Source: Candidatus Hecatella orcuttiae
GTDB taxonomy: Archaea > Thermoproteota > Bathyarchaeia > Hecatellales > Hecatellaceae
Direction of reading: 5' to 3'
Assembly (NCBI GenBank): GCA_002011035.2
Contig: MTLY02000001.1
Location: 1-63,341 of the forward strand
DNA length: 63,341 nucleotides
The notes under the pieces were generated by a model. The model was given only the letters and a program-made list of their open reading frames with translations. It did not search any database and was not told the DNA's origin. Each line of letters starts with the position of its first letter. The stretch's first letter is position 1. Shown here piece by piece: positions 50,643 to 59,799 of the stretch. The translations under genes were made by a program, and so were the position numbers.

Positions 50643-52925
50643 TCAGTTCAGCCAACTGGCTACCACCGACTGTCCGAATGATATCCCCCCGTCTCCGGGG
50701 GGAATTTGAATGTGGGTGAAAAAGTTGAATCCTTCTCCCTCCACAATGTTTCTGATGACCCTGCTGATGTGCTCGTTGTAGGCTACACCTCCAGAGAAGC
50801 CAACAGCTTGAACTCCTAGCCTATCGCATTCTTTCACAGCTAATTCAGCTAGCCCCCTAGCTAGGTAGGACTCTGCAGAGTAAGCTAGGTCCGCGGGTGA
50901 ATGTTCATCTCGTCGAATGAACACTTCCTTAAGGAGATATGACGTGTCGAGAACTCCTCCGGAAATCTTAGGCGTTAAGCACAGGATGTCTCTACCTTTT
51001 ATGGCGGCAGATTCAAGCTTCACGGCAGGTTCTCCTTCATAGGTCCGTTCATAGCATAAGCCCAGCAACGCTGAGACGGCATCTAAAACTCTTCCACAGC
51101 TTGTGGTCTTGGGGGCGTGCCCGCTTTCCAACTGCCTTAAGACTACGCCTAACTCCATTTCCCCACGGGGGAAACATCTAACATTTGAATATAGCCATTC
51201 TTCGACATCCACCAACCCGTGAAGAATGCCAGCTACCATCCTCAACGGGTAACGGGTGGCAGCGTCTCCACCGACCATAGGCTGCTCTTGAAGATGGGCA
51301 AGCCGTCTGAAGCCGTCTCGGTCGCAGTATAGAATTTCTCCACCCCATGCGGATCCGTCGGAGCCGTAGCCGAAGCCGTCGCAGCAGATGCCGATCATAT
51401 GGGTGAGGTTATGCTCGGCCATGAGAGCTGCTATGTGGGCGTGGTGGTGTTGAACCTGCACCACGGGACATCCGAGCTTCTCCGCCAGCTCGTAGGCGAA
51501 TTTGGTTGTGCTAAATTTAGGGTGCAGATCGCAGGCGATTACCTCAACTTTGAGGTTTGTCAGCTTTAGCAGATGGTCTGTGGCACTTTTAAGATAGTTA
51601 AGGGTTTCAAGATTTTCCACGTCTCCAATATATTGCGAGATAAAAGCCCGCTTTCCGGAAAGCACGCAAGAAGCCACATTTTCTTCAGCCCCCAAACCTA
51701 AAGCGCAACGTTTCACTTCGGATCCCAAGTGAATCGGTGCGGGGGCGTAGCCTCTGGATCGACGGATGAGGGTGGGGGTTCCTCTATTCACGCGAAGGAC
51801 TGAGTCATCGCATCTTTGGGCTATGTCTCTATCATGCATGAGAAAGAAGTCGACAACAGGCCTCAGCCTCCTCACGGCTTCCTGATTTTCCACAATAATG
51901 GGCTCGCTGGGAGGGTTAGCGCTGGTCATCACTAGAGCTGGTTCATTTATGCTATCAAAGAGCATGTAGTGGAGGCCTGTGTAAGGCAGCATGACGCCTA
52001 CGTTGTGAAGACCCGGGGAGATCAGGTCTGAAAGATAAAAATTTTCACTCTTCTTCAGCAGAACTATGGGCTTTATGTACGATGTCAGAAGAGCAGCTTC
52101 CTCCTTTCCCACCTCCGCAAAGGATTTCACCGCCTCAAGGTCTCGGGCCATCACGGCGAAAGGCTTCTGCGCCCGGTGCTTGGCCTTCCTCAGCCTGATT
52201 ATCGGCTCAGGCTTCATCGTCGATGTAGCCACATGGAAGCCGCCGTTTCCTTTAACAGCCACTATGTAGCCTTCTTCAAGCAGCCGGCCTGCTTCTCTGA
52301 TAGGATCCTGATGGTCGAGGATCTGTCCGTCTTTTGAGGTTAAAAAAACTCTGGGGCCGCACCGAGGACAGGCCACAGTTTGGGCGTGAAACCGCCGATT
52401 TAAGGGGTCCGTGTACTCTCGACTGCAATCTTCGCACATGGGGAAGCGGTTCATCACTGTGTTGGGTCTGTCGTAGGGTAGTTTCTCTATTATAGTATAC
52501 CGAGGGCCGCAGTCGGTGCAGGTGATGAAGAAATAGCCGTATCGCCTGTCCTTTAGGTCACGAAGCTCACGAAGACAGTTGTCGCAGATGGAAATGTCCG
52601 GTGGGATTATGGACCCTGAAAGGTCGCTCTTTTCACTGCTCTTAAGGATGATGAACCTTGAAAATTCTCCCTTATCCTCTGCATAGTTCACGCTTAACTC
52701 GTAGATCCGGGCCAAAGGCGGCTTCTTCCTCTCAAGGTCATCAATGAACCTTTTGACATTTTCCTCCGACCCTTCAACAACTATCTCCACACCTGCATCT
52801 CCACGGTTTCGAACAGTACCTTTCAGCTGGTTCTCTGCCGCAATACGGTAAATGAAGGGACGGAAGCCTACGCCTTGAACAATCCCCGTGACTAAGATTT
52901 CAGCGCGCAGAGGCCCGCACACCAA
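50643..52925 (-). CDS. hypF: carbamoyltransferase HypF
   Basis: A 760-residue multidomain enzyme that turns carbamoyl phosphate into the carbamoyl group placed on HypE. In order: acylphosphatase domain (VQGVGFRPFIYRIA, about 16-29), two zinc fingers (CDNCLREL...CTDCGPR and CEDCSREY...CPRCGP, about 110-200), YrdC-like domain (KGNGGFHVA, about 224-232, to ~390), and a Kae1/TobZ-like domain with VQHHHAHIAALMAE. It is the first of the minus-strand hyp genes. All domains are complete. Confidence 0.95.
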   Translation of the reverse strand: MVCGPLRAEILVTGIVQGVGFRPFIYRIAAENQLKGTVRNRGDAGVEIVVEGSEENVKRFIDDLERKKPPLARIYELSVNYAEDKGEFSRFIILKSSEKSDLSGSIIPPDISICDNCLRELRDLKDRRYGYFFITCTDCGPRYTIIEKLPYDRPNTVMNRFPMCEDCSREYTDPLNRRFHAQTVACPRCGPRVFLTSKDGQILDHQDPIREAGRLLEEGYIVAVKGNGGFHVATSTMKPEPIIRLRKAKHRAQKPFAVMARDLEAVKSFAEVGKEEAALLTSYIKPIVLLKKSENFYLSDLISPGLHNVGVMLPYTGLHYMLFDSINEPALVMTSANPPSEPIIVENQEAVRRLRPVVDFFLMHDRDIAQRCDDSVLRVNRGTPTLIRRSRGYAPAPIHLGSEVKRCALGLGAEENVASCVLSGKRAFISQYIGDVENLETLNYLKSATDHLLKLTNLKVEVIACDLHPKFSTTKFAYELAEKLGCPVVQVQHHHAHIAALMAEHNLTHMIGICCDGFGYGSDGSAWGGEILYCDRDGFRRLAHLQEQPMVGGDAATRYPLRMVAGILHGLVDVEEWLYSNVRCFPRGEMELGVVLRQLESGHAPKTTSCGRVLDAVSALLGLCYERTYEGEPAVKLESAAIKGRDILCLTPKISGGVLDTSYLLKEVFIRRDEHSPADLAYSAESYLARGLAELAVKECDRLGVQAVGFSGGVAYNEHISRVIRNIVEGEGFNFFTHIQIPPGDGGISFGQSVVASWLN

Positions 52926-52971
52926 GTCCGCTTGAATTGCATTTTAAGGAAAGATCGCGGTACATTTATTC

Positions 52972-55140
52972 CTATTGCGGGCTACGTGAGCTTATTTTGT
53001 AAACTTTGCAGAGAGTGCCTCTAACCCGAACAGACCCGCATATTTTTTCCCTTGGCGGAGCATCAGATGTTATGACATTGATGTTTGATTCGAAACAGCC
53101 ATGCTGTGGGGATGGCTTCTCCGGGAACCACCATCCATGTCTTGCGTGGGCGACCATGGGATGAATGCCGGCTGTAAGTTTAGCTTTAAACTTAACTCTC
53201 TCACCCTTAACCTGCGGGGTCTCAACCCAAACCCAGTCGCCGTCTTTAATGCCCATCTTAGTTGCCGTTTCCGGATGAATTTCAATCTCAGGGTCGGGTG
53301 CCAGCCTACGCAAGCTTGGAATCTGGCGGCCCTCAGAATGGAAATAGTTAATATGCCTTGAACCTGTAATCAAAATGAGGGGATATTCTTCTAAAAATTC
53401 CGGTGAGCCTACAGGGCTCTCCGGTGGTTCCACGTAAGTTAGCAGCGGGTCGTATCTGTATTTTTCCAGAATTGTTGAATAAAGCTCCACCTTTCCTGTG
53501 GGTGTTTTAAAACCCTCACTTTCATATTTTTTATATTTCAGAGGCGTCATGATGTGTCCTTTTTTCTTAAACGATTCAAACGTTATTCCTAGTCCTTTAA
53601 CTCTCCAGTCATTGAATTCCCCAACACTGTTCCAAGGAAGAAACCTTCTGTTCGCCCAAGGGATTCTTTTAACCAGTTCTATAACTATTTTCATATCATG
53701 CCAACACTCAGAAGGCGGCTCTATTACTTTCTGTCTAGCGGCAATGTAATTTACGTATGAAAGATTACAGCCGTCGTCTCTTTCAAGCCACATGGCAGCT
53801 GGGAGGACATAGTCGGCTAATTCGGCAGTAGGGGTCATGAAAAAGTCAACGACAACCAAAAGTTCAAGCTTTTTCAATGTTTCCCAGACTTTCTTACTGT
53901 TCTGAATGTTAATAACAGGATTTCCTCCCCCACAGAACAACGCCTTTACAGGATAGGGTTTACTGGTTAAAATAGCATCGATCAGAAGCAGAGAATTAAC
54001 AAAGGGAAGCAACGCTTCTTCTCCTGATGTAAGAGGATAAACGTTGCTCCCTATGCGCCTCTTCTCCAAGGATGGATCTGGCCGAAGCGCCCTTGCCTCT
54101 TTTCCCACTCCCAGTAGCAGCTCATCACCTACATATCCTTCCAAGTTTACAGAAAAAAGGTTTCCTCCTTTTACGTCAAGATTTCCCGTAAGTGCTATGA
54201 GTACAGCTAAAGCCCGATTCGTCTGAGTGGAATTGAGGTTATGCTCCACCGCTACACGGTGGTGGAGAACCGCCGGCTTTGTCGTCGCATAAATTCTGGC
54301 AGCTTCCTTTATCTTTTCAGCTGAAATCCAAGTTATGTCGGCTACTCTTTCAGGAGGATACTGCTTTAAGTGTTCTTTTAGCGCATCAAATCCGTGGCAC
54401 CATTTTTCAACAAACTCCTTATCGTATAGTTCCTCCTCTAGGATCACATATATCATCCCCAAAGCTAAGGCAACATCTGTTCCAGGTCTGACCTGTAACC
54501 ACAAGTCTGCTTGAGAAGCGAGAACTGTCTTCCGTGGATCGATGACGATGAGCTTAACATTTCTTTTCTGCTTAGCCTCAATGATCTCCATTCCTCGCGG
54601 TGGATGGGAAACCACCGGGTTTCCACCCCAAACCACAATGCAGTTTGCGTTTTCGTAATCAGGTCCCACCTCCATCATAACAGACTTGCCGAAAGTGCAG
54701 TTTTCCGCTATTAAGGAAGGAGCAAAGCATATGTGCAAATCAACACTTCCAACATTCGGACTGTTCAGCGCGTAAACAAGTAGACAGGTAGAATAAAGAG
54801 TAGGTCGAGGGCCAGTGCCGTGAATTGAAGCAATTGACTCGGAGCCGTATTTTTCTTTAATTTCCGTAAGCTTTTCAGCAATCTCATTTAAGGCTTGATC
54901 CCATGATATCCTCCGCCATTTCCCTCCACCTCGTTCTCCAACCCTCTTCAGTGGATGCTTTAAACGGTCAAGATGTTCCACAAATTCTGAATATTTTTCA
55001 CCTTTAACGCAGATAAACCCGCGGTTCAATGGAAAAGCCGGGTCGCCTTCGATCTTCACTACTCTTTCATTCTCAACGTGAACGAGAACTCCGCATTCGC
55101 AATGACAAGCTTGGCATATAGTCTTGACTGTTCTTTTCAA
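52972..55140 (-). CDS. molybdopterin oxidoreductase (FdhA/thiosulfate-reductase superfamily)
   Basis: A 722-residue bis-MGD enzyme of the DMSO-reductase family. The N-terminal 4Fe-4S site is Cys9, Cys12, Cys16 and Cys44 (GFICVKG). The likely Mo/W ligand is Cys138 in LHICFAPSL. In formate dehydrogenases that Cys/Sec is followed by His; here it is Phe139, so a formate dehydrogenase is doubtful and other reactions (sulfur-compound reduction, hydratase-type chemistry) remain open. No Tat signal is present, so the enzyme should be cytoplasmic. It is 46 bases upstream of hypF on the same strand and could feed electrons to Hdr via MvhD. No FeS partner subunit is adjacent. Confidence 0.85.
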   Translation of the reverse strand: MKRTVKTICQACHCECGVLVHVENERVVKIEGDPAFPLNRGFICVKGEKYSEFVEHLDRLKHPLKRVGERGGGKWRRISWDQALNEIAEKLTEIKEKYGSESIASIHGTGPRPTLYSTCLLVYALNSPNVGSVDLHICFAPSLIAENCTFGKSVMMEVGPDYENANCIVVWGGNPVVSHPPRGMEIIEAKQKRNVKLIVIDPRKTVLASQADLWLQVRPGTDVALALGMIYVILEEELYDKEFVEKWCHGFDALKEHLKQYPPERVADITWISAEKIKEAARIYATTKPAVLHHRVAVEHNLNSTQTNRALAVLIALTGNLDVKGGNLFSVNLEGYVGDELLLGVGKEARALRPDPSLEKRRIGSNVYPLTSGEEALLPFVNSLLLIDAILTSKPYPVKALFCGGGNPVINIQNSKKVWETLKKLELLVVVDFFMTPTAELADYVLPAAMWLERDDGCNLSYVNYIAARQKVIEPPSECWHDMKIVIELVKRIPWANRRFLPWNSVGEFNDWRVKGLGITFESFKKKGHIMTPLKYKKYESEGFKTPTGKVELYSTILEKYRYDPLLTYVEPPESPVGSPEFLEEYPLILITGSRHINYFHSEGRQIPSLRRLAPDPEIEIHPETATKMGIKDGDWVWVETPQVKGERVKFKAKLTAGIHPMVAHARHGWWFPEKPSPQHGCFESNINVITSDAPPREKICGSVRVRGTLCKVYKISSRSPQ

Positions 55141-55200: not shown

Positions 55201-55278
55201 TGGCGGGCCCGGGGGGATTTGAACCCCCGACCTACAACTTAGGAGGCTGCCGCGCTGTCCTGACTGCGCCACGGGCCC
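55201..55278 (-). tRNA. tRNA-Arg (anticodon CCU)
   Basis: On the minus strand the segment folds as a standard tRNA: acceptor GGGCCCG with CGGGCCC, D stem GCGC/GCGC, anticodon stem GCAGC/GTTGT (two G-U pairs) with loop CTCCTAA, 5-bp T stem GGGGG/CCCCC around TTCAAAT. The anticodon is CCT, reading AGG (Arg). Discriminator G and a genome-encoded CCA (55201-55203) complete the 78 bases. No intron is needed. Confidence 0.95.
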
Positions 55279-56728: not shown

Positions 56729-58399
56729 ATGGGCAGGCTGAGAGGACCATTTGTAAGGTTTCTGCTTTTGATGCTCATTTTTTCTACGTTAGCAAGCGCA
56801 CAGTTTACCCTTCGGACGGTTTCTTCCACCCCGCCGCACTTAGAGGTGGATAAGTCTGTAAATCCTTCAAAAATATGGATCAAAAGTCTAGGCTTCACCC
56901 CAGAAAAGGCTAGAATAACCCTAACCCTCAGAGGGGTCGGTGACCCTGCGGTTCAAAGTTTCCCCATCGACGTGGTGCTGATCGTGGACAGGTCTGCGAG
57001 TATGGCTGAAGGAGAAAAGTTGGAAGGCGCTAGGTACGCTGTGAGTAGTTTTCTGAAGCTTCTAAACCCGGAGATAGACCGTTCAAGTCTAGTGTCTTTT
57101 TCTTCTTCAGCAAGAATAGATAGAAAGTTGACATTTAACCACATGCAAGTTCAGGAAGCCATCATGGGCCTGAGTCCAGAAGGCGCAACTGCCCTAGGCG
57201 ACGCTATTCACCTAGCCAACTTGGAACTGTCTTCCCATGGAAGACCGCAAGCCGTTTTGGTGGAGATCCTACTGTCAGATGGGGCTGCAAACATAGGCTC
57301 GGACCCTGTGAGGCGGGCTGAGGAGGCGGCGGATATGGGCATCGTCATCTACAGCATAGGATTAGGAGTGCCCACGGAAGAAAGTCTATCCTTGCTGGAA
57401 CATGTGGCTAAGTTGACTGGTGGTAAATATTATTCTGCACCGGATCCCGCCAACCTTGAAGGCATCTACCGCGAGGTGGCGCAGCAATTAAGCAGCTTGG
57501 CTGGGAAGAACATAGTTGTAAAAGAGGTTCTGCCAGATTACCTCAACCTAGAAGGCGATTACACCCTAGAGCCTGTCGAGGTTATCCTTAACCCCGATGG
57601 GACTACAACCATCTTCTGGGATGCAGGTTTCCTTCCCATAGGTGATACGTGGACTGTGTCTTTCAACGTAAGCTCATCCCAAGGCGGCTTTCTCCCCGCG
57701 GATGTTTATGGAGAAACAAAGGTTGCCTATACAGATTATAAGGGAGAGTTCGCGAGCGTCATCTTCCCGGAAGTAAAGATATTGGTGAGAACAGTCAATC
57801 ATCCACCAGTGGCAGATGCTGGAGCCGACATGTTTGTTGAACAAACCACGTATCAGGGTGCGATGGTGACCCTCAACGGGTCCAGTTCCTTCGACCCAGA
57901 CGGGGACTCGCTAACCTACATTTGGACATGGGACGGTAACATTGTTTCAGGTGAAAGCCCAACTGTGCTGTTACCGTTAGGGGAGACGGTGGTGATGCTA
58001 ACCGTAGATGATGGAGTTTTTTCGGATACCGATACGGTGAAGGTCACTGTCCACGAAACCACACAGTTCACTGCCCCCTTAGTTTACGAACAACCTTCAA
58101 CCTCTATTAGGGAGGAGGTGAGAGGGATTGACGTAGAAAGCCTGTTTAGAGTAACGTTCGTACCTTTTTACGCTCTCTTTTTCAGGGAGATTATCCTCCT
58201 ATCCGTGTTGTTGCTTCTGGTGGTCTTGCTGGTTATGATGACAAGAAGTCAGAGAATCTACGACCGATATGGTGAGGAGTATATGAAGCTTCTTAAGCAG
58301 TTCATGGTGCATAGGATTCTGGTAAAAATTCTGTACTTGTTGTTGGTCATCCTTGCCATAACCCTGTTTATACTCCCCATTCTCTTGGCTATCTTCTGA
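56729..58399 (+). CDS. membrane-anchored VWA-PKD surface protein
   Basis: A 556-residue exported protein. Residues 5-24 are a signal or anchor helix. A von Willebrand A domain spans about 78-255 with a complete MIDAS metal site (Asp87-x-Ser89-x-Ser91, Thr154, Asp184). A PKD-type beta domain (about 353-443) follows, with SSSFDPDGDSLTYIW. Two C-terminal membrane helices (about 482-508 and 530-556) flank a short cytoplasmic loop. VWA proteins bind partners through the metal site; an adhesion or surface-assembly role is likely. A TTTAAAT box 26-32 bases upstream suggests a leaderless transcript. No partner MoxR ATPase is in view. Confidence 0.8.
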   Translation: MGRLRGPFVRFLLLMLIFSTLASAQFTLRTVSSTPPHLEVDKSVNPSKIWIKSLGFTPEKARITLTLRGVGDPAVQSFPIDVVLIVDRSASMAEGEKLEGARYAVSSFLKLLNPEIDRSSLVSFSSSARIDRKLTFNHMQVQEAIMGLSPEGATALGDAIHLANLELSSHGRPQAVLVEILLSDGAANIGSDPVRRAEEAADMGIVIYSIGLGVPTEESLSLLEHVAKLTGGKYYSAPDPANLEGIYREVAQQLSSLAGKNIVVKEVLPDYLNLEGDYTLEPVEVILNPDGTTTIFWDAGFLPIGDTWTVSFNVSSSQGGFLPADVYGETKVAYTDYKGEFASVIFPEVKILVRTVNHPPVADAGADMFVEQTTYQGAMVTLNGSSSFDPDGDSLTYIWTWDGNIVSGESPTVLLPLGETVVMLTVDDGVFSDTDTVKVTVHETTQFTAPLVYEQPSTSIREEVRGIDVESLFRVTFVPFYALFFREIILLSVLLLLVVLLVMMTRSQRIYDRYGEEYMKLLKQFMVHRILVKILYLLLVILAITLFILPILLAIF

Positions 58400-58588: not shown

Positions 58589-58726
58589 TTACCATTCTTC
58601 TTCCTCAGCCCACTCTTCCTCTTCGCCCCATTCCTCCTCTTCCCCGGCCAGCTCTTCTTCTTCTCCAGGGTCTATTTCTCCACCGTTCCAATTTTCATCT
58701 TCCACGTTTAAGGCGGCAGGCATCAT
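58589..58726 (-). CDS. 45-aa acidic Glu/Trp-repeat microprotein
   Basis: A short ORF on the minus strand, ATG 58726 (a second ATG at 58723) to TAA 58589-58591. GAGGT at 58733-58737 is six bases before the start, and a TATA-like AAGTATAA lies about 45 bases upstream. The protein begins MMPAALNVEDENW and its second half is a tandem pattern of four Glu then Trp: GEEEELAGEEEEWG followed by two more EEEEW units, ending in Trp. It has no Lys, Arg, Cys or His and a very strong negative charge. The family is unknown to me. The good SD and the regular repeat argue that it is a real gene. Confidence 0.65.
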   Translation of the reverse strand: MMPAALNVEDENWNGGEIDPGEEEELAGEEEEWGEEEEWAEEEEW

Positions 58727-58968
58727 TCTTCTACCTCAGCGCATCCTTGGTTTTCTTGAACAGGGTAGTTATACTTAAATTTTATTCCCCTTCTCCGGGA
58801 ACAGCTTCCGGAGGTTCTTATTTTTCCATTCAAGTTTAAATACCACTCCCTAAATTTAGCGGATTTTAAACCTTAGAAACGAAGTTTTTATTAGCAAAGT
58901 AAAATAATGAAAATAAAAAATAAAAGCCGCTTCTAAGGCGCTGACATTCAGCAGGATGTGGAAATCAA

Positions 58969-59799
58969 TTGAATGATATAGTTTCAGCAAAAGAGTTGGC
59001 TCCCAATATCAAGCAGTTTGAAATCTTGGCCCCTCCCGTGGCTACTAAGGTTAGGCCGGGCCATTTCGTGGTTTTGCAGACGGAGGAGGAAGGAGAGCGG
59101 ATACCTTTAACCGTTGTTGACTCCAACCCTGAGAAAGGCACTGTTACCCTCGTGTTTTTGGAAATCGGAGCCTCCACCAAGAAGTTGGGAAAACTGAAGC
59201 AGGGGAACCGCATCCTCCACTTCGTCGGACCCTTGGGGAACCCCTCTGAAATAGAGAAATTCGGGCAAGTTGTCTGCGTAGGGGGAGGAATAGGCGCAGC
59301 GGCCATCTACCCCATCGTCAAGGCTTTAAAGGCTGCGGGCAATCGAGTGATATCCATCATCGGGGCGAGAAACAAGGACCTATTAATATATGAAGAAGAG
59401 CTGCGAAAGGTAAGCGACGAGCTTTATGTAACCACAGACGACGGCTCGAAAGGCCGCCACGGTTTCGTCAGCGACGTTCTGAAGGAGCTACTGGAAAAGG
59501 GCATTCCCATCGACAGGGTCATAGCCGTGGGTCCAGCTGTTATGATGAAGGTGATAAGCAACCTAACCAAGCCCTTCAGAGTTAAAACCATCGTAAGCTT
59601 AAACCCCATCATGGTGGACGCCACGGGCATGTGCGGCTGCTGCAGGGTTTACGTGAGCGGTGAAACCAAATTCGCCTGCGTCGACGGACCTGAATTTGAT
59701 GGGCATCAAGTTGACTTTGACAATCTCCTAGCCCGGCTTCGAACCTACGTGGAGGAGGAAAAGCTTTCTCACCAGATGTTGGAAAAGGGAGAGGGGTGA
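58969..59799 (+). CDS. NfnA/SudB-type ferredoxin:NADP oxidoreductase subunit
   Basis: A 276-residue flavoprotein of the ferredoxin-NADP reductase fold. An FAD-binding barrel (GHFVVLQ near 32-38) precedes the nucleotide domain (CVGGGIGAAAIYP, about 104-116), and the C-terminal 2Fe-2S site is DATGMCGCCRV with FACVDGPEFDGH. It pairs with the NfnB gene that overlaps it by 4 bases. NfnAB couples NADH and ferredoxin to NADPH by flavin bifurcation, or acts as sulfide dehydrogenase/NADPH oxidoreductase. TTG 58969 is the start, with GGATGTGG upstream. Confidence 0.9.
   Translation: MNDIVSAKELAPNIKQFEILAPPVATKVRPGHFVVLQTEEEGERIPLTVVDSNPEKGTVTLVFLEIGASTKKLGKLKQGNRILHFVGPLGNPSEIEKFGQVVCVGGGIGAAAIYPIVKALKAAGNRVISIIGARNKDLLIYEEELRKVSDELYVTTDDGSKGRHGFVSDVLKELLEKGIPIDRVIAVGPAVMMKVISNLTKPFRVKTIVSLNPIMVDATGMCGCCRVYVSGETKFACVDGPEFDGHQVDFDNLLARLRTYVEEEKLSHQMLEKGEG

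Follow-up and report, generated by a model that had tools for sequence, protein, structure and literature searches.

ABCE1, the recycling factor by which ribosomes are split once translation is over, is an essential protein of both archaea and eukaryotes, and archaeal recycling accessory factors are few. Among small acidic docking elements, DSS1/Sem1 (Rpn15) is a small, hyperacidic, aromatic-studded and disordered adaptor with a C-terminal helix and a mixed sequence, linked to the proteasome, BRCA2 and TREX-2, and the C-terminal tip of bacterial SSB, an acidic run with a terminal aromatic residue, serves as a docking tag. eIF3j/Hcr1 functions in termination, recycling and initiation (PMC2824034, PMC3836723). 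In human eIF3j, Trp52 is flanked by D50, D53 and D57, and in the yeast protein W37 is accompanied by EEEE40-43 (PMC2824034, PMC3836723); the human Trp52 and its flanking acids occupy a hydrophobic pocket of eIF3b-RRM with a Kd of 20 uM, and binding is lost on W52A or D50K-D53K-D57K (PMC2824034). Hcr1 also binds Rli1/ABCE1 by way of the ABC2 domain, and the hcr1 deletion is rescued by extra RLI1 (PMC3836723). Archaea possess a simpler factor set (PMC5105147).

An acidic-tryptophan gene in the window

The window analysed here is a 63,341-nt stretch of DNA from Candidatus Hecatella orcuttiae (phylum Thermoproteota, class Bathyarchaeia), in which a minus-strand ORF (Table 1) encodes MMPAALNVEDENWNGGEIDPGEEEELAGEEEEWGEEEEWAEEEEW, a 45-aa protein with 19 Glu and 2 Asp (21 acidic residues), four Trp and no Lys, Arg or His. 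The first-pass annotation had read it as a hidden microprotein, possibly missed in most annotations, with a Shine-Dalgarno sequence, a TATA-like motif and three near-tandem EEEEW units devoid of basic residues, and each of these points holds: GAGGT precedes the ATG, the TTTAAGTATA box lies ~45 nt further upstream on the ORF's strand (one match in the window vs 0.10 expected by chance), the three units are present, and the ORF is a real unannotated gene that has a promoter and a ribosome-binding site to itself. It is intergenic, with a VWA/PKD membrane protein on one side and an FNR-like/NfnB-type subunit on the other; Rfam gave no RNA family over it, its sole match in the window being a tRNA, and AlphaFold2 predicted a low-confidence helix (mean pLDDT 65, pTM 0.36).

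Table 1. Positions of the EW microprotein gene, its signals and neighbouring features in the window
Feature	Position	Strand	Basis or remark
EW microprotein coding sequence, 45 aa + stop	58589..58726	-	Translation; orthologs in same-family genomes G001, G003, G006, G007; nonsynonymous change far below synonymous
EEEEW unit 1, residues 29-33	58628..58642	-	Translation; E29-W33 identical in closest ortholog
EEEEW unit 2, residues 35-39	58610..58624	-	Translation; comparison with closest ortholog
C-terminal EEEEW unit 3, residues 41-45, last residue Trp	58592..58606	-	Translation; the family is marked by a C-terminal acidic run with Trp at its end
Shine-Dalgarno-like GAGGT, 6 nt before ATG	58733..58737	-	Read from sequence; GAGGT/GGAGG precedes many homologs too
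Archaeal TATA-like promoter box TTTAAGTATA	58770..58779	-	Single exact match in window; similar TTTAAGTAGTA upstream of G006/G007 orthologs
VWA + PKD-domain membrane protein	56729..58399	+	C-terminal transmembrane segments; tail-to-tail with EW gene
FNR-like/NfnB-type subunit	58969..59799	+	
HypF (hydrogenase maturation) beside molybdopterin oxidoreductase	50643..55140	-	
tRNA	55204..55278		Rfam

ORFs of this acidic-aromatic kind (two or more W/F and an acidic share of 45% or above in the last 20 aa) numbered one in the 63-kb window, namely the ORF at issue, none in 583 kb of bacterial loci and one in 2.5 Mb of simulated first-order Markov sequence. The bacterial background DNA came from the 80 relatives of the flanking FNR-like gene, which are mostly bacterial and were uninformative on the ORF. 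Under a stricter definition, none occurred either in the 583 kb or in the 2.5 Mb. Acidic-aromatic ORFs are thus not a chance product of the window's DNA.

Selection on the protein sequence

Across eight genomes of family f36 (two of them DNA-identical), the last 26 residues are identical and synonymous sites are saturated (summed pS 0.99, pN 0.003). The genes of the two same-family relatives G006 and G007 differ with pS 0.38 and pN 0.03, and those of the window and G006 with pS 0.90 and pN 0.10 over the last 21 codons. A window-G003 comparison was ungapped and out of register and is to be ignored; the other rates are rough, given the short length and the codon bias, with their direction not in doubt. 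By this substitution pattern, the amino-acid sequence is evidently what is kept, under purifying selection that is extreme. Being short and very simple in sequence, the ORF could be taken for a low-complexity purine-rich tract that is open by chance, a reading we regard as wildly improbable, since amino-acid identity with synonymous saturation refutes it, orthologs occur in about half of the sampled families with a reversed-pattern control of zero, and an ORF of this kind arises once per 2.5 Mb of Markov-simulated DNA. The first-pass annotation had itself named absence from close relatives, and nonsynonymous change equal to synonymous, as counting against the ORF; with orthologs present in relatives and nonsynonymous change far below synonymous, the ORF survives on both counts.

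A previously unannotated archaeal family

It is virtually certain, coding and family membership being judged jointly, that the window ORF is a true gene belonging to an archaeal family that had escaped annotation, whose members we call EW microproteins. A protein-vs-genome search of 61 relatives returned one clear ortholog, MAPAALRFEEEEWSEEGEELEEGWEEEEWEEEEEWAEEEEW in the same-family genome G006, and missed the others, probably through low-complexity filtering; a two-sequence profile run over 257 genomes added only G004. DNA-pattern searches were the most effective way to find members. The pattern EEWxEEEEW-stop matched in 8 of the 257 genomes of the class and WxEEEEW-stop in 26 of the 398 genomes of the phylum, with zero matches of the reversed-pattern control in every genome of either set, so that the Glu4-Trp period for which the first-pass annotation had advised a search does recur in related genomes. 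A more flexible pattern matched in 36 of 80 family representatives, a minority of these matches being chance according to the reversed control and the translations. Beyond this, relaxing the pattern in 37 genomes brought no more than the noise of the control apart from one EW-like tail (G464), 116 genomes of a second archaeal phylum (that of a Methanomassiliicoccaceae genome) gave chance matches only, and the 21 pattern matches among IMG/VR viral contigs included no convincing family member. Counted from the pattern searches together with the ABCE1 loci described below, members occur in ~38 of the 77 GTDB families sampled in the phylum, about half.

We defined a member as a short ORF with at least 45% D/E and at least three W/F in its last 20 aa and a terminal W or F; the window ORF satisfies this definition and is listed with 19 other members. 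The 67 distinct members are mostly 20-50 aa long and consist of 59% Glu, 14% Trp and 4% Asp, with a last residue that is Trp, rarely Phe, and a Trp-Trp spacing of mostly 4-7 without fixed register. Examples from four families, MPIWYYREEEEWEEEEELWEEFEEEWEEEEEW (f36), MVVYFEEEWWEEEEEEWEEEEEWWEEEEEW (f28), MLFEEEWEEEEEEEWWEEEEEWEEEEW (f57) and MVFEEDWEEEFEEFEEEEDWEEEEDWEEEW (f42), are strikingly alike in kind, and the member of the G441 lineage, MAEEEELEEFEEFEEFEELEEFEEF, carries Phe throughout. Many of the genes have a TATA-like box and/or a Shine-Dalgarno sequence within 60 nt upstream (judged by eye, unscored). Pfam gave no match for the window protein (E<=0.001) or for five other members (E<=1), NCBIfam none for the family, and PDB chains none, whether one member or a profile of 20 members was used. 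The open literature covered contained no mention of EEEEW with archaea and no description of a Trp/Glu-rich crenarchaeal small protein; most subscription journals lie outside it, and mention elsewhere is possible.

Several copies depart from the common form. Genome G279 encodes two paralogs of ~102-106 aa (L155:3450-3755, -; L156:3613-3930, +) in which an EW tail is attached to a Cys-containing domain (..VSCEEYCK..) that has no Pfam or NCBIfam match; the same clusters flank both loci, which might point to duplication or mobility, and the genome additionally carries an ordinary free-standing EW gene. Longer EW proteins with N-terminal extensions occur in G262 (51 aa, L136:1800-1952, +), near an HTH protein and a PhoU/MazE-domain protein, and in G211 (41 aa, L132:6902-7024, -), near an Ogg-type glycosylase, neither being near ABCE1. 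G012 has two EW genes, one of 18 aa beside ABCE1 (L277:3779-3832, +) and one of 22 aa elsewhere (L194:5399-5464, +), possibly by duplication. The copy in G004 (G004:C114:77-199, -, L086), situated at a contig end, has kept MAPAALRFEEEEW and lost several internal Trp, which may reflect decay or an assembly error.

Linkage to ABCE1

Clustering of neighbours revealed one protein that recurs beside EW genes of different families, namely ABCE1 (Pfam: Fer4_RLI and two ABC domains). We repeated the comparison with ABCE1 as the centre; 80 representative genomes were searched for it through the Fer4_RLI domain, which avoids ascertainment by the EW pattern. An EW-like ORF was found within 1300 nt upstream of ABCE1 in 34 of 76 loci, from 28 families, a count that is slightly generous: the representatives were picked mainly on completeness, but after the phylum-wide pattern search, and a few were already known to hold EW. 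Among these 34 ORFs, 32 were co-directional with ABCE1 and 22 lay within 150 nt of it, and the remaining 551 kb of ABCE1 loci contained two EW-like matches, both EW genes 1.5-2.4 kb from ABCE1. Several families have ABCE1 without a detectable EW gene (scan of the ABCE1 loci and relaxed pattern in 37 genomes); EW is therefore not universally required.

ABCE1 itself sits in an old, ancestral and conserved gene cluster with Cgi121, THUMP, TPI, FBP aldolase and TFS, and the adjacency of EW may partly be inherited gene order. By frequency as a neighbour of ABCE1, EW ranks first (34), followed by Cgi121 (29), TPI (25) and the THUMP protein (22), and EW is the most persistent member of the cluster. 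Near EW genes, Cgi121, THUMP, Sua5, S17e and TFS also recur. Instead of ABCE1, the docking partner might be another translation, tRNA-modification or transcription component of the cluster (TFS/RNA polymerase, KEOPS Cgi121, the THUMP protein or the thermosome), which we consider unlikely but worth keeping in view: such genes recur both near EW genes and upstream of ABCE1, and several lineages (L201, L204, L205) have a TFS-like Zn-ribbon gene that separates EW from ABCE1. In the class of the window genome, however, EW and ABCE1 are commonly direct neighbours, and each candidate is rarer than EW as an ABCE1 neighbour.

The window gene as a detached ortholog

In G003, G001, G006 and G007, of the same family as the window genome, a gap of 55-121 nt separates the end of the ortholog from ABCE1 downstream, whereas in the window genome ABCE1 is 300 kb off (C1:358063) and has no EW ORF as a neighbour. 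The window gene is hence an ortholog that has become separated from ABCE1 and is served by a promoter of its own. It was because this link is broken in the window genome that the first-pass annotation missed the phylum-wide family and the connection to ABCE1. The EW gene is likewise not adjacent to ABCE1 in f36, G017, G234 and G436. In f36 the two genes are unlinked and the protein is almost invariant, and in f28 a highly similar EW ORF lies on the strand opposite ABCE1. The protein is conserved independently of its cis context.

These exceptions bear on a cis-acting leader, in which translation of the poly-Glu/Trp stretch would destabilise or pause the ribosome, sense splitting capacity and thereby regulate ABCE1 in the same transcript. 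Acidic runs near the start of a protein are known to make ribosomes unstable, an effect that the E. coli mgtL leader exploits for sensing (PMC11282234, PMC9718836); in addition, the ORF is directly upstream and co-directional in 32 of the 34 linked cases, often within 150 nt. The same-strand, upstream arrangement of a leader is indeed seen in many lineages, but it is lacking in f28 (opposite strand) and in f36 and the window genome (unlinked, with its own TATA box). The opposite-strand copy of f28 and the unlinked copies of f36 and the window argue for a trans-acting product and against a leader peptide; amino-acid identity across f36 despite the unlinked location implies the same, and neither the Trp spacing nor the C-terminal Trp is needed for acid-driven destabilisation. 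We therefore regard a leader as improbable.

Proposed function

Docking of the peptide on a partner, one of the roles suggested by the first-pass annotation, is the reading we favour. The EW protein could be a trans-acting acidic-Trp docking peptide that acts with ABCE1 or the 30S subunit, a proposal that we hold with somewhat less than even confidence. Largely disordered or transiently helical, the peptide would carry several acidic-Trp docking motifs, each of low affinity, and these would engage a basic surface of the ABCE1/30S post-splitting machinery that contains a hydrophobic pocket; docking might tune recycling or the hand-over to initiation, in a mode of action like that of the acidic-Trp N-terminal motif of eIF3j/Hcr1, an ABCE1/Rli1 partner. 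Likeness of chemistry and gene context are what suggest the partner, the binding mode and the step affected. The other roles in that annotation fared less well: the conserved neighbourhood (ABCE1, Cgi121, THUMP, Sua5, S17e, TFS) is translational and not DNA-related, and so lends no support to a DNA mimic, and a metal- or calcium-binding tail is likewise unsupported, as conserved Asp-based calcium loops are absent.

The peptide might also be a multi-client acidic-aromatic adaptor or charge mimic, either DSS1/Sem1-like or a nucleic-acid mimic on RNA/DNA-binding surfaces, with the ABCE1 linkage mainly inherited order. A net charge of about -20 in ~45 residues, with Trp every 4-7 residues in no fixed register, fits a fuzzy multivalent binder better than a domain that folds, and the unlinked f36 copies are fully conserved. 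We nevertheless judge such an adaptor rather unlikely, as genes for DNA binding, repair or the proteasome did not emerge as linked to EW in the neighbourhoods and the ABCE1 linkage is repeated over 28 families.

A conserved protein made of almost only two amino acids and missed by annotation challenges the notion of a gene, and its linkage to ABCE1 points to a testable role in ribosome recycling. Should EW prove to be a ligand of ABCE1 or of the 30S subunit, density left unmodelled in maps of crenarchaeal 30S/ABCE1 and in cell extracts would become interpretable. We tentatively suggest that the family may be an unrecognised archaeal ABCE1/30S accessory factor, bringing the acidic-Trp docking chemistry of eIF3j to archaea as a free-standing peptide.

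Comparison with known systems

We know of no equivalent free-standing, nearly two-letter microprotein that is conserved across a phylum. A DNA mimic would have a folded acidic surface imitating DNA phosphates, or linkage to restriction, repair or chromatin targets; AlphaFold2 predicts only the low-confidence helix here, and the neighbourhoods hold no such linkage. MgtL-type leader peptides, which act by intrinsic ribosome destabilisation, are tiny acidic ORFs upstream of a gene, as EW is (PMC11282234), but some EW genes lie on the other strand or at a distance from ABCE1 and still have a conserved protein sequence. The SSB tip shares with EW an acidic run that ends in a C-terminal aromatic residue; it is a single motif at the tail of a DNA-binding protein, whereas EW is free-standing, multi-Trp and away from DNA-replication genes. 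DSS1/Sem1 resembles EW as a small, hyperacidic, aromatic-studded, disordered adaptor and differs in its C-terminal helix, its mixed sequence and its proteasome/BRCA2/TREX-2 link, for which EW has no counterpart; Pfam scans and PDB searches returned no match to PF05160 or to a DSS1 chain.

For eIF3j/Hcr1, Pfam, NCBIfam and PDB searches detected no homology in EW members, and the resemblance is one of composition only: the N-terminal acidic (NTA) motif is an acidic-flanked Trp, and in most EW proteins such a motif appears 3-6 times. The solved contact of the NTA is with eIF3b, not ABCE1, and to our knowledge eIF3b has no archaeal counterpart, so the eIF3j precedent concerns the chemistry and not the partner. 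Whereas eIF3j is a protein of ~30 kDa with further domains, EW corresponds to its acidic-Trp part alone, repeated and ending in Trp.
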